Assembly: GCA_015487095.1 (NCBI GenBank) | Contig: WFQM01000263.1 | Coordinates: 1 to 32,478, forward strand | Length of the DNA: 32,478 bases | Source of the DNA: Gammaproteobacteria bacterium | GTDB taxonomy: Bacteria > Pseudomonadota > Gammaproteobacteria > SZUA-152 | Reading direction: 5' to 3' | Shown: positions 11,077 through 25,776 of the stretch, piece by piece | Layout: every line of letters starts with the position of its first letter | How positions within the stretch are numbered: position 1 is the stretch's first letter | The notes under the pieces: model-generated | Told to the model about the DNA's origin: nothing | The model's database searches: none | Seen by the model: the letters and a program-made list of their open reading frames with translations, nothing else | Made by a program: the position numbers and the translations under genes

Positions 11077-11112
11077 TTGATATATTTGGATAGGCGTATA
11101 TAATTGGCCTCC
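11077..11112 (+). promoter_or_regulatory. promoter of the arsenic operon repressor, near-leaderless
   Basis: TTGATA (11077-11082) and a perfect TATAAT (11099-11104) are 16 bases apart. The transcription start should fall at about 11111, one or two bases before the arsR ATG at 11113, leaving no room for a Shine-Dalgarno sequence. An AT-rich region precedes it. Confidence 0.7.
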
Positions 11113-11448
11113 ATGAACACTGAATCCCTTGCCGCACTATTTAAAACCCTCTCTGAGCCCGTGCGCTTACGGATTGTTTATCTATTGCTGGAGTCGGGTG
11201 AGCTCTGCGTCTGCGATCTGGTAGAAACATTGGGGCTGTCGCAAAGCGTGGTGTCTCGACATCTTGCCTATCTACGCAATAACGGGTTGGTCTCCACCCG
11301 GCGTGAAGGTGTGTGGGTTCACTATCGTATTGTGGATGCCTGTTGCGAGCCGTTGTTTGAGCATATCCGCCAATGTGGAGCGGATAATGAAGAGATGCAG
11401 ACTGATCTCAAAAAACTGGCAGCAACGGCTCAGCAGAAGTGTGGGTGA
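11113..11448 (+). CDS. arsR: ArsR-family arsenic-responsive repressor
   Basis: This 111-residue winged-helix repressor carries ELCVCDL (C32, C34), the As(III)-binding signature of classical ArsR, just before the recognition helix (LSQSVVSRHLAYLRNNGLVSTRREG). A second Cys pair (VDACCEP) lies further on and may provide another ligand. It should repress the downstream GAPDH-arsJ-acr3 genes until arsenite or a related trivalent species binds. I chose the ATG at 11113; a TTG at 11104 overlaps the -10 box. It is separated from the first enzyme gene by about 120 bases containing a dyad. Confidence 0.9.
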   Translation: MNTESLAALFKTLSEPVRLRIVYLLLESGELCVCDLVETLGLSQSVVSRHLAYLRNNGLVSTRREGVWVHYRIVDACCEPLFEHIRQCGADNEEMQTDLKKLAATAQQKCG

Positions 11449-11532
11449 ATGAGAGACTCTGTTTGCTTAAAGATTGAATTGTGGGCCGAAGCAATCCGGT
11501 TTTTTTAAAGGCCTTTTTTAAACCCCCAATAC

Positions 11533-11548
11533 ATCCGCTTATGCGGAT
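11533..11548 (+). promoter_or_regulatory. dyad upstream of the GAPDH gene (possible ArsR site)
   Basis: ATCCGC-TTAT-GCGGAT is a perfect six-base inverted repeat between arsR and the GAPDH gene, a few bases before the ribosome site TAAGGAG. It could be an operator for ArsR or an RNA hairpin that controls access to the ribosome site. Nearby AAAGGCCTTT is a further short palindrome. Function is inferred from position. Confidence 0.4.
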
Positions 11549-11569
11549 ATGCGGTAAGGAGTGAAAGCA

Positions 11570-12568
11570 ATGATTCGAGTGGGCATTAACGGTTTTGGGC
11601 GCATGGGACGGCTGGGTCTGCGTGCAGGGTGGGATAGGTCGGAATTTCAGGTTATGCGCATCAATGAAACGGCTACCGATGCAGAAGGGTCGGCCCATTT
11701 GCTCAAGTTCGATTCGGTGCACGGTACCTGGTCTCACGACACGGGCGCAGAAAACGGAAATGTCATCATCGGTGACAGGACATTGGCCCACACATCGAAT
11801 GCCGCCATTGGCGATAGCGACTGGTCGGGTTGCGATATTGTGATCGAGACCACGGGTAAACATCACAAAAAGCCGGAAACACTCAATGCCTATTTTGAGC
11901 AGGGTGTGAAGAAGGTGATCGTGGCGGCCCCCACCGAAGGGGCGCTTAATATTGTTTACGGCATCAACGACCACAAGTACGATCCGGCCAGCCATCATCT
12001 GCTGACGGCTGCGTCTTGTACCACCAACTGCCTGGCACCTGTGGTGAAGGTGATGCACGAAAAAGTGGGCATCCTGCACGGTTCCATGACCACCATTCAC
12101 GACATTACCAACACCCAGACCATCGTTGACAAAGGCCACAAGGATCTCCGCCGGGCACGCGCCTGTGGCAATTCGCTTATTCCCACCTCAACCGGGTCGG
12201 CCAAAGCCATTGGCAAAATCTTTCCCGAGCTGGATGGGAAACTCAATGGTCATGCTGTGCGTGTGCCGTTGCTTAATGCGTCATTGACTGATTTTGTCTT
12301 TGAGGCAGCACGCCCGGTCACAGCGGATGAAATCAATGCCTTTTTCAAGGAGGCGGCGGAAGGTGAATTAAACGGCATTCTGGGTTATGAAGAGCGCCCG
12401 CTGGTGTCCGTGGATTACCTCAACGATCCACGTTCTTCCATTATCGACGCCCTTTCCACCCTGGTTATTCATGATACCCAGGTAAAAATTTACGCCTGGT
12501 ATGACAACGAATGGGGCTACGTCAACCGCATGATGGAGCTGGTGGCCAAGGTTGCACGGAGTCTGTAA
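11570..12568 (+). CDS. glyceraldehyde-3-phosphate dehydrogenase of the arsenate-detoxification type
   Basis: This 332-residue protein is a complete GAPDH with the NAD-binding start [20 protein letters not shown], the catalytic motif [10 protein letters not shown] (C150) and the C-terminal motif [12 protein letters not shown]. The position between arsR and arsJ identifies it as the dedicated copy that joins arsenate to glyceraldehyde-3-phosphate, giving 1-arseno-3-phosphoglycerate for export by ArsJ. That role is known for this gene pair and is inferred here from context. The start at 11570 has AAGGAG eight bases upstream; a GTG at 11561 is part of that site. The stop codon is directly adjacent to the arsJ start. 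It is not a general glycolytic copy by context. Confidence 0.9.
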
Positions 12569-13777
12569 ATGCAGACTGAGCTTCGCAATTACCTGTTGAT
12601 CAGTGGCGGTTATTGGGCCTTCACACTCACCGATGGCGCGATCCGCATGCTGGTGGTGCTTTATTTTCACCTGCTGGGTTATTCACCCTTCGAGGTGGCA
12701 ATGCTGTTTTTGTTTTACGAATTTTTCGGCATCGTTACCAACCTGCTGGGGGGATGGCTGGGGGCGCGCATCGGCCTGAATCTCACCATGCACATCGGCA
12801 TGGGCTTACAAGTACTGGCACTGCTCATGCTCACTGTGCCGGAGGCCTGGCTTAATGTGGCTTATGTGATGTTCGCCCAGGCCTTGTCGGGTATTGCCAA
12901 AGACCTGAACAAGATGTCCGCAAAAGCGGGAGTGAAAATGCTGGTGCCCCCCGGCAATGAGGGCAGCGGCTCCCGTCTGTTCAAATGGGTGGCGATGCTC
13001 ACCGGTTCCAAAAACGCCCTGAAGGGAGTCGGCTTTTTCCTGGGTGCGGTCTTGCTGGAATTTGTGGGATTCCGGAGTGCTTTGTTGATACTGGCAGGCG
13101 GTCTGCTGCTGGTATTGATGTTTACCGCGATGGTGTTGCCACGAGGACTGGGCAAACCCAAAGCCAGTCCCAAATTCTCTCATCTCTTTTCCAACACACC
13201 CGCTGTCAACTGGCTTTCAGCGGCGCGATTCTTCCTGTTTGGTGCGCGTGATATCTGGTTTGTGGTGGGCTTACCCGTTTTTCTGTTTTCAGTGCTGGGC
13301 TGGCAATTCAGCGCAGTGGGTGCATTTTTTGCCCTGTGGGTGATTGTGTACGGCATCATCCAGTCCTGTGCACCGATAATACTGCGGGGGCACCACCCTG
13401 GTGGGGCAACTGCGCGGGGGTGGGCCTTTGCTCTGGTATTGATTCCCGTCGCTATCGCACTGGCTTTGCAGCAAGGCATGGAACCAAACCGGGTGATTAT
13501 TATTGGCCTGACTGTTTTTGGTGCGGTATTCGCCATCAACTCAGCGGTGCATTCCTATCTGATTGTTGCCTGGTCTGAGCATGATAAGGTGTCGATGAAT
13601 GTCGGTTTTTATTATATGGCCAATGCCGGTGGACGATTAACCGGTACCGTGTTGTCCGGCTGGATTTACCAGACCCAGGGGCTGGTGGGCTGCCTGTGGT
13701 GGTCAGCGGCCTTTGTGCTGATGGCGGCATTGCTGTCGATACGCCTGCCAGCGGGAAGCAAAGAGGCCTATCAATGA
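12569..13777 (+). CDS. arsJ: ArsJ, organoarsenical (1-arseno-3-phosphoglycerate) exporter, MFS family
   Basis: This 402-residue inner-membrane protein has around 12 hydrophobic segments and the ArsJ-type N terminus (LRNYLLISGGYWAFTLTDGA). The paired GAPDH start and the sequence GIAKDLNKMSAKAGVKMLVP support ArsJ rather than a general MFS drug pump. By known biology, ArsJ removes 1-arseno-3-phosphoglycerate, which would otherwise break down to arsenate and 3-phosphoglycerate. The ATG directly follows the GAPDH stop with no gap. The gene ends in an ATGA overlap with acr3, so translation is coupled along the operon. Confidence 0.9.
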   Translation: MQTELRNYLLISGGYWAFTLTDGAIRMLVVLYFHLLGYSPFEVAMLFLFYEFFGIVTNLLGGWLGARIGLNLTMHIGMGLQVLALLMLTVPEAWLNVAYVMFAQALSGIAKDLNKMSAKAGVKMLVPPGNEGSGSRLFKWVAMLTGSKNALKGVGFFLGAVLLEFVGFRSALLILAGGLLLVLMFTAMVLPRGLGKPKASPKFSHLFSNTPAVNWLSAARFFLFGARDIWFVVGLPVFLFSVLGWQFSAVGAFFALWVIVYGIIQSCAPIILRGHHPGGATARGWAFALVLIPVAIALALQQGMEPNRVIIIGLTVFGAVFAINSAVHSYLIVAWSEHDKVSMNVGFYYMANAGGRLTGTVLSGWIYQTQGLVGCLWWSAAFVLMAALLSIRLPAGSKEAYQ

Positions 13778-14784
13778 GCCAATCACCCACATCTGAAGAT
13801 AGGCACAAACATCATCTTGATCCTCTTACTCGCGGCCTGCCTTTGTGGATCATCGTTGCGATGGGACTGGGGCTCTGGGTAAGTCAGCTTGCGCCTGAGT
13901 TGGGGAAAGCTTTGGAGTGGGGTATTCCGTTGGGGCTGTTTTTAATGATCTATCCGGCCATGACCAAACTGCATCTGGAGGACATCAAAAGCGCGGCGCG
14001 TAATCGTACCGCAACGGCACTGATTCTAGGATTCAACTACATCCTCAACCCGGCCCTGTTATGGTTTTTCGGTTGGCTGTTTCTGCGTGACTATCCGGAA
14101 TTATGGATTGGCCTTATTTTGCTCGGCGTGGCTCCTTGCATCGCCATGGTGCTGGTGTGGACCGATCTGTCGCGCGGAAATAACGCGCTGTCGGTCACCC
14201 TGATGGCCTGGAATAGCCTGATTCAAATCCTCACCACCCCCTTTTTTATCTGGCTGATCATAGGCCAACAGGTCGATGTTGACGTATTGATGATCGCCCA
14301 GAGCGTCTTTTTCTACTTGGGATTGCCGCTGTTCTTCGGTTTTCTGACACGCCAGATTGCGGTACGCAGGAAGGGGGCTGCCTGGTTCGACGGTGCGGTG
14401 CAACCGCGTCTGGATAAACTGCAACTGGCTGCGCTGTTGTTCACCCTGCTGATCATCTATGCCCTGCAAGGCGAGGTCGTACTGGCGCATCCTGAATTTA
14501 TCTGGCGCATGGCGATACCGCTATCACTGTTCTTCGTCACGCTGTACGGCATCGTGTTCTTTCTTTCCCGTGCTGCGGGGCAGAATTACGAAAACAGCAC
14601 CGCCATTGCCTTTAATGCAACAGGGCGAAACTTTGAGCTGGCGATTGCTCTTGCGATTACCGCCTTCGCCGCCCAACCGCTGGTGGGTGTCTCGACCGCT
14701 ATTGGTCCATTGATCGAAGTGCCTTTGATGCTTGCCATTGTCTGGTGGAGCAAGCGCATGGCGGTGAGGCTTCGGTGGAGTTGA
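13774..14784 (+). CDS. acr3: Acr3-family arsenite efflux permease
   Basis: This 336-residue membrane protein has about ten hydrophobic segments and Acr3 signatures: GVAPCIAMVLVW with the conserved Cys (C122) and AFNATGRNFELAIAL with the conserved Glu (E288). It exports arsenite, the product of arsenate reduction, using the proton gradient. The ATG at 13774 overlaps the arsJ stop (ATGA); a start at 13696 would lie inside arsJ. The N terminus is His-rich (DRHKHHLD). No arsC reductase is in the window, so arsenite must come from uptake or from an unlinked reductase. A transposon-like element begins directly after the stop. Confidence 0.9.
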   Translation: MSQSPTSEDRHKHHLDPLTRGLPLWIIVAMGLGLWVSQLAPELGKALEWGIPLGLFLMIYPAMTKLHLEDIKSAARNRTATALILGFNYILNPALLWFFGWLFLRDYPELWIGLILLGVAPCIAMVLVWTDLSRGNNALSVTLMAWNSLIQILTTPFFIWLIIGQQVDVDVLMIAQSVFFYLGLPLFFGFLTRQIAVRRKGAAWFDGAVQPRLDKLQLAALLFTLLIIYALQGEVVLAHPEFIWRMAIPLSLFFVTLYGIVFFLSRAAGQNYENSTAIAFNATGRNFELAIALAITAFAAQPLVGVSTAIGPLIEVPLMLAIVWWSKRMAVRLRWS

Positions 14785-14785
14785 T

Positions 14786-14970
14786 ATCATCCTAAATTAA
14801 TCAGTTGAGCCTACTGCGAACGTCTAATGCACTCAATCTAAATGACTTTTTCGAACATTTTGAACTCACCGTATGGGGGATACGCTTTCATTCAAAATAA
14901 CCGAAAAAGTCATTGATCTTGAGCACCTTAGCCGCTCTCGCGACGGCTCAACTGATTAATTTAGGATCAT
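14786..14970. mobile_element. MITE-like non-autonomous element with perfect 21-bp inverted ends and 5-bp target duplication
   Basis: The element 14791-14965 (175 bp) is bounded by perfect 21-base inverted repeats at 14791-14811 and 14945-14965, beginning CCTAAATTAA. It is flanked on both sides by the direct repeat ATCAT (14786-14790, 14966-14970), which fits a target-site duplication. There is no coding frame. Inside are further nested inverted repeats: AATGACTTTTTCG (14841-14853) with CGAAAAAGTCATT (14902-14914), and ATTTTGAA (14857-14864) with TTCAAAAT (14891-14898), so the whole element can fold into one long hairpin. It begins within two bases of the acr3 stop. I do not recognise its parent insertion sequence. 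Confidence 0.8.
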
Positions 14971-15144
14971 CGTTTTTGTTTTGCAGACGTGTTTCAGCTA
15001 AAGGTCAGCCGTTCTGGCAGATCGAGCATTTCCACCATTTTCAACTCCCGTAAAAAAGCCGAATTAACGCTTGACTCCGTTGTGTGGTACAGACTCTAGA
15101 ATCAACACATTATTAACCCTATTCCGGCAATAGAGGAGCAATCG
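14971..15144. other. leader and intergenic region before merT
   Basis: Apart from the mer promoter this region holds no gene. On the minus strand a short frame ending at about 15000 reads RELKMVEMLDLPERLTFS, which could be the tail of a lost gene (for instance a divergent gene removed by rearrangement), but it is too short to assign. No merR is present. A ribosome site AGAGGAG precedes merT. Confidence 0.35.
15071..15102 (+). promoter_or_regulatory. MerR-type promoter of the mer operon
   Basis: TTGACT (15071-15076) and TAGAAT (15097-15102) are separated by a long 20-base spacer (19 if the hexamer is shifted by one). The spacer holds a MerR-like dyad: CTCCGT followed by GTACAGAC, matching the start of the Tn501 mer operator (TTGACTCCGTAC) very closely. 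This points to control by a MerR activator, yet no merR lies beside it. Confidence 0.75.
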
Positions 15145-15555
15145 ATGGACACTTCAGAGACATCTGTACCGACAGTAGATGCGTCAGGAGAAACCGGCGA
15201 GAAAGAGAACCAGGGTCTCTCAAAAGGTACCCTGATCGGCAGCATCATTGCGGGCATTGCTGCCTCCACCTGTTGCATCGGGCCTTTGGTATTGCTGACC
15301 CTGGGCGTTAGCGGCTCATGGATTGGCAATCTCAGCGCCATGGAACCCTTCCGACCCTATCTTATCGGTGTGACGCTGATATTGCTGGGCCTGGCATTTC
15401 GTAAACTGTATCTGGTCCCTCAAGCCTGTGCCGTGGACGCACCGTGTTCTACGTCATCAAATCTGCGCAAACAGCGCATCACTTTCTGGATCGTTAGCGT
15501 GTTTGTGCTGATCGTCATGAGCTTCCCTTGGTATGGGCCCTATTTGTTGGACTAA
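15145..15555 (+). CDS. merT: mercuric transport protein MerT
   Basis: This 136-residue inner-membrane protein should take Hg(II) from MerP and pass it to the cytoplasmic reductase. The first membrane helix has the essential pair STCCIGP (C43, C44), and a second pair lies in the cytoplasmic loop (C95, C101 in QACAVDAPC). Three hydrophobic helices are visible, as usual for MerT. It has a longer hydrophilic N terminus (about 28 residues) than Tn21/Tn501 MerT. It starts after AGAGGAG and is followed 65 bases later by merP. Confidence 0.9.
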   Translation: MDTSETSVPTVDASGETGEKENQGLSKGTLIGSIIAGIAASTCCIGPLVLLTLGVSGSWIGNLSAMEPFRPYLIGVTLILLGLAFRKLYLVPQACAVDAPCSTSSNLRKQRITFWIVSVFVLIVMSFPWYGPYLLD

Positions 15556-25562: not shown

Positions 25563-25630
25563 CCCAGAGATGCCCCTCCAGACAAATGTTCCAACACATC
25601 GTGTCATGGCACTGGCAAGGAACGTGTTAT

Positions 25631-25716
25631 TAACGCAGAGGTCGTAGAGGCGCAAAGGACTCAGAGAAAAACACGGAAAACTTTGTGTCCTCTGCATCTC
25701 TGCGGCCTCTGTGTTA
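25631..25716. repeat. long imperfect inverted repeat (AACGCAGAGG / CCTCTGTGTT type)
   Basis: The arm 25631-25666 (starting TAACGCAGAGG) pairs with 25681-25716 (ending CCTCTGTGTTA) at about 28 of 36 positions across a 14-base loop. This purine-rich GCAGAGG pattern is one I associate with dispersed palindromic intergenic repeats in many bacteria. It lies in the intergenic region between two genes that face each other (the EAL gene and sfsA), where it could act as a bidirectional terminator or be a mobile palindrome. Confidence 0.7.
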
Positions 25717-25776
25717 AATACCCGGTAATTTTTAAAGTAGGGATTTTTTAACGCTTAATTCACACTTTAACCGCGC

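Follow-up and report, generated by a model that had tools for sequence, protein, structure and literature searches.

A gene-less 175-bp foldback MITE between arsenic and mercury resistance genes of a gammaproteobacterium, with a likely parent among divergent IS1380-like transposases

The 175-bp palindrome lying between an acr3-like gene and a merT-like gene on contig WFQM01000263.1 (the window, that is, the whole 32,478-nucleotide stretch analysed here) is a true and well-supported MITE, a copy from a new family of a known kind of element, whose gene-less members are mobile and very common across gammaproteobacteria. We consider it highly probable (roughly 0.85) that this non-autonomous element was mobilised in trans by a divergent IS1380-like (DDE) group of transposases and entered the site after acr3 by ordinary intergenic insertion. 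In such an origin, a transposase supplied in trans would recognise the terminal CCTAAATTAATCAGTT(G/A) repeats and insert the element at a WTNAW site, duplicating these 5 bp and leaving acr3 intact. The transposase would come from the IS1380-like group, whose IS resemble the element closely in their ends and use targets of this type, and the full-length foldback would be kept either by selection or by some other process that acts on palindromes.

The element proper is 175 bp long and occupies 14791-14965 of the window (+ strand), as read directly from the sequence and as supported by a repeat search, by folding and by its recurrence in the same genome; the range of 14786-14970 given earlier also counts the two ATCAT duplications. 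The junction reads ...TTGA-T-ATCAT-CCTAAATTAATCAGTTGAGCC...GGCTCAACTGATTAATTTAGG-ATCAT-CG. The terminal inverted repeats, perfect over 21 bp, lie at 14791-14811 (+, CCTAAATTAATCAGTTGAGCC) and 14945-14965 (-), and both are supported by direct reading, the repeat search and copies of the ends elsewhere. The target-site duplications, likewise read directly, lie at 14786-14790 and 14966-14970 (both +), and the left one fits the family duplication WTNAW. Nested within the element is a second inverted repeat with 47-nt arms, 77% complementary and with covarying pairs, at 14818-14864 and 14891-14937 (both +). The first-pass annotation had proposed a palindromic 175-bp MITE with perfect 21-bp ends, an ATCAT duplication and nested inner inverted repeats, and all of these stand: the ends and duplication on direct reading, the inner repeats as the 47-nt arms, and the MITE itself on its copies, their 5-bp duplications and the empty sites of other copies. 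No ORF of at least 80 aa lies within the 175 bp, and a transposase gene is thus absent; no Rfam family matched at the element.

Upstream lies the acr3-like arsenite efflux gene (13696-14784, +; PF01758), whose product scores 258.9 bits on TIGR00832 (acr3), slightly below the cut-off of 282.8, and whose true start is probably later than the listed 13696. Its TGA stop codon occupies 14782-14784 and the duplication starts at 14786, so that the element lies just outside acr3 and leaves it unaltered; a single base separates the two, in agreement with the earlier statement that the element starts within two bases of the stop. The gene closes an arsR - ArsJ-associated GAPDH - arsJ - acr3 cluster at 11104-14784, an organoarsenical efflux set. 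Downstream, the merT-like gene (15145-15555, +; PF02411 MerT, E = 1.1e-32) is the first of a mer cluster that includes a heavy-metal-domain gene and merA. The locus therefore carries a mobile element, probably a neutral one, between two metal-resistance clusters. Close to the contig end, the window also contains domains D1-D4 of a group II intron (51-252, - strand; Rfam RF02001).

Searched with the whole element, its own genome contains about 40 places with 84-100% identity, and relatives carry further copies. The 21-bp end, for which a search had been suggested in the genome and its relatives, occurs in 73 copies at up to 3 mismatches in the own genome, whereas the reversed control gave 0; the palindrome is thus not a chance feature. 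Among 57 genomes searched as relatives, 12 match the element, some with more than 10 copies, and the family recurs in most relatives of the same genus and in scattered genomes from other families of the class. An 18-bp end is present in 15 of 24 genomes across the order, and a class-wide sample of 369 genomes contains its exact form in 17 (reversed pattern, 0). Most of the outlying hits in the class are again two ends flanked by duplications that agree fully or nearly, and in several cases the ends lie 175-177 bp apart. Shorter MITE forms of 54-115 bp were also found; the 70-bp one in L043 derives from the 175-bp form by internal deletion. No copy was present in the plasmid collection, and a 31-base end query against plasmids and phages returned matches at chance level only. 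The first-pass annotation had staked its reading on other copies or a related IS existing somewhere, and both many copies and a likely parent IS group were found. Among individual copies, one in a genome of another family (L131 194-368, G216) is 96% identical to that of the window, reflecting either a recent transfer or a stray contig in the G216 assembly, and another (L053 1105-1547, G004:C38) is interrupted by another foldback element, roughly 270 bp long, in a nested insertion. The window contains a second dispersed repeat, GCAGAGGTCGTAGAG...CTCTGCGGCCTCTGTGTTAA (25620-25740), with similar stretches in L171, L181, L038 and L188, and several such repeats have a MITE copy within them or next to them.

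Target-site duplications are a regular feature of the family. Of 98 collected elements, 70 are flanked by a perfect 5-bp duplication and 17 more by one with a single base difference; in all 70 perfect duplications the second base is T and the fourth is A (a TNA middle), and nearly all fit WTNAW. Two empty sites were found for other copies than the one at the acr3-mer junction: the element in G000:C165 is matched by a single ATTAT in G009:C82 (94% identity over 443 bp), and that in G002:C69 by G004:C59 (83%). The insertions avoid genes: 10 of 78 fall inside ORFs, whereas 266 of 390 WTNAW sites taken as controls from these stretches do so, counts that rest on simple ORF calls rather than gene predictions.

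The whole length of the element folds back, with an RNA fold of -77.1 kcal/mol for the element with its flanks (z = -10.6) and a DNA fold of -46.1 for the element (z = -11.3). Across 46 distinct aligned copies and a 47-pair structure, 95.5% of cells stay paired, a share that is favoured by deriving the structure from the same alignment. Changes on both sides affect 23 pairs and 209 cells, compared with a shuffled mean of 69.6 and 0 of 500 shuffles reaching 209; when the arms are slid against each other, no more than 21 such cells are left. Some pairs show at least three states, for example AU, CG and GC at columns 65-117, and a minimum of 52 switches between Watson-Crick types is estimated, roughly, since the tree built from unpaired columns alone is weak. 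The pattern of paired changes is unusually clear: the arms evolved together, and the hairpin has been kept across the family.

How the foldback is maintained admits two readings, both compatible with the element being a MITE. Template switching, which corrects imperfect palindromes, occurs in bacteria and would act without strand bias; it is a serious but tentative explanation that such correction, and not selection for the hairpin, produced the paired changes in the arms. In line with it, G-T and A-C mismatch cells are equally common (55 vs 58, one column left out), so no single RNA strand is favoured. Against it, conservation within the stem is as high at unpaired positions (88%) as at paired ones (86%), although correction should erase bulges, and the same figures speak against simple arm-to-arm copying. 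It may instead be, and we put this forward as a conjecture, that these elements form a foldback MITE superfamily in many gammaproteobacterial families, and that selection acts on both their size, near 175 bp, and the bulged hairpin that spans the whole element. If so, the hairpin could, for example, be a structured substrate for the IS1380-like transposase or a hairpin that works in both orientations. That bulges are conserved next to covarying pairs throughout a MITE prompts the question of whether such transposases need a folded DNA substrate.

IS1380 ends start with CC and are accompanied by duplications of 4-5 bp, and on these grounds IS1380 transposases were sought. The search went from a truncated transposase (L116) through tblastn to an IS on a Polaromonas plasmid (L231), and then through a search of the class to intact relatives. 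It led to a candidate parent group of 524-aa transposases whose IS ends, CCTARAWWAATCAGTTR, are identical to the element end at up to 17 of 18 positions. The intact IS in G181 (L235) encodes a 524-aa transposase between ends CCTAAAAAAATCAGTTAA and CCTAGATTAATCAGTTGA; the latter matches the window MITE end at 17/18 positions and a variant in G019 and G021 at 18/18, and the former matches the window end at 15/18. Its flanks (TTCAA/TTGAA) show no direct match, and the IS (1351-3075 of L235, G181:C84) is bordered by mutually inverted 20-bp repeats, as if centred in a palindrome. The IS in G307 (L236) has ends CCTAGAAAAATCAGTTAC and CCTAAAAAAATCAGTTAA (13/18 and 15/18) and a perfect duplication ATGAT. 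The Polaromonas plasmid IS has ends CCTATTTTCGGCAGTTAG and CCTAGAAACGGCAGTTAG with a CCTAN7CAGTT motif and a perfect duplication TTAAA, which is the second commonest MITE duplication. The candidate parent transposases exceed the Pfam cut-off for PF13701, but against the IS1380 model of NCBIfam they reach 131, 128 and 155 bits, short of the required 180; the group is therefore called divergent IS1380-like.

The first-pass annotation had proposed to look for an autonomous IS with the same ends: L235 and L236 have similar ends, and neither the own genome nor the order yielded an intact IS with MITE-like ends. The own assembly is split into 348 contigs and may lack a repeated IS. The nearest candidate in the order is L116 (G014), where the truncated IS1380-like transposase lies beside one end (13/18), possibly by chance, given how many of these ends G014 contains. 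The intact classic IS1380 of the genus (L017, ends CCTAAATCCTGCAAG) was rejected as the parent, as the likeness of its ends stops after the first 7 bp and its duplication, TAGAA, does not fit WTNAW; a decayed remnant of an L017-type transposase is found in the own genome (L042, G000:C171 2107-2904). PF01609 (IS4/IS5/IS1634-type) transposases near MITE ends were also rejected: at L104 an IS5-like gene adjoins half a MITE, and L113 is a decayed fragment that lacks matching ends. These circumstances, namely an order that has yielded no intact IS1380-like parent and a resident IS1380 of different target, would suit mobilisation of the MITE by another transposase family, with the likeness to IS1380-like ends due to convergence or shared short motifs. 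We regard this as unlikely, given that the 17/18 and 15/18 matches fall exactly at the two ends of the intact L235 and that the target type and the CCTAN7CAGTT motif recur in other IS copies. Trans-mobilisation by the IS1380-like group, which we infer from these ends and targets, gives a likely parent to a very abundant, previously unassigned MITE family and ties IS1380-like transposases to MITE spread.

The foldback is very stable, its paired changes preserve it across the family, and it separates two genes, acr3 and merT, that run in the same direction, all of which could be taken to favour a domesticated terminator or insulator separating the ars and mer operons. No intrinsic terminator matched within 14700-15160 in a scan that covers loops of 3-8 bases only, and the sequence lacks a G+C-rich stem with a T run directly behind it, the T-rich stretch being flanking DNA several bases past the stem. 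Moreover, the gaps that received insertions (32 tandem, 20 divergent and 12 convergent) resemble those of control sites (56, 30 and 20), from which it follows that many copies lie upstream of genes; the insertions show no preference for terminator positions. Of the distances from insertions to stop codons, 19 of 56 are under 25 bp, compared with 16 of 96 at control sites, a nearness that may reflect the T-A-rich target. The idea of the first-pass annotation that the hairpin may end arsenic-operon transcription and insulate mer thus gains no specific support; a domesticated terminator or insulator is improbable, and any insulating role at this locus is unlikely to be special.

Many contigs of the own assembly terminate inside MITE copies, and a false join of ars and mer pieces through the repeated 175-bp sequence is nevertheless very improbable, because both sides bear an identical ATCAT, a duplication that is rare in the family (2 of 70; chance match about 3%), which argues that the join is real. 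No empty site was found for the acr3-mer junction itself, as the order holds no orthologous junction and the matches in relatives lack the acr3 side. Ordinary insertion of a MITE after acr3 remains the reading that we prefer.

Correia/NEMIS, RUP and ERIC are bacterial MITEs. Like bacterial MITEs in general, the element is short and gene-less, with terminal inverted repeats, a hairpin and many mostly intergenic copies; it differs in its ends and in its 5-bp WTNAW duplication, which is neither TA (the IS630 type) nor 10 bp. A 14-mer of the MITE end did not occur in the literature searched, and a limited search, covering part of the literature, returned no description of an IS1380-derived MITE. 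The MITEs of Thiomargarita hupL and dsrA provide further bacterial cases for comparison (PMC4853749). TIMEs, miniature elements derived from Tn3 (PMC4133298), resemble the element in their duplications of 5 to 6 bp within AT-rich DNA and in mobility without a transposase of their own, but have Tn3-type ends, whereas the element ends in CCTAAATTAATCAGTTGA. REP and REPIN sequences are also palindromic, intergenic and present in many copies; REPs are 20-40 bp long (PMC3733652) and associated with REP-associated tyrosine transposases (PMC2817692), whereas the element is 175 bp long and has target duplications. The IS1380 family (ISEcp1, IS1380A and relatives) shares the PF13701 DDE transposase of the likely parent group, ends beginning CCT and 5-bp duplications. 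The IS group with MITE-like ends differs from that family in falling below the NCBIfam cut-off and in its WTNAW target, and its transposases are about 23% identical to that of L017, the IS1380 element of the same genus with ends CCTAAATCC and duplication TAGAA.
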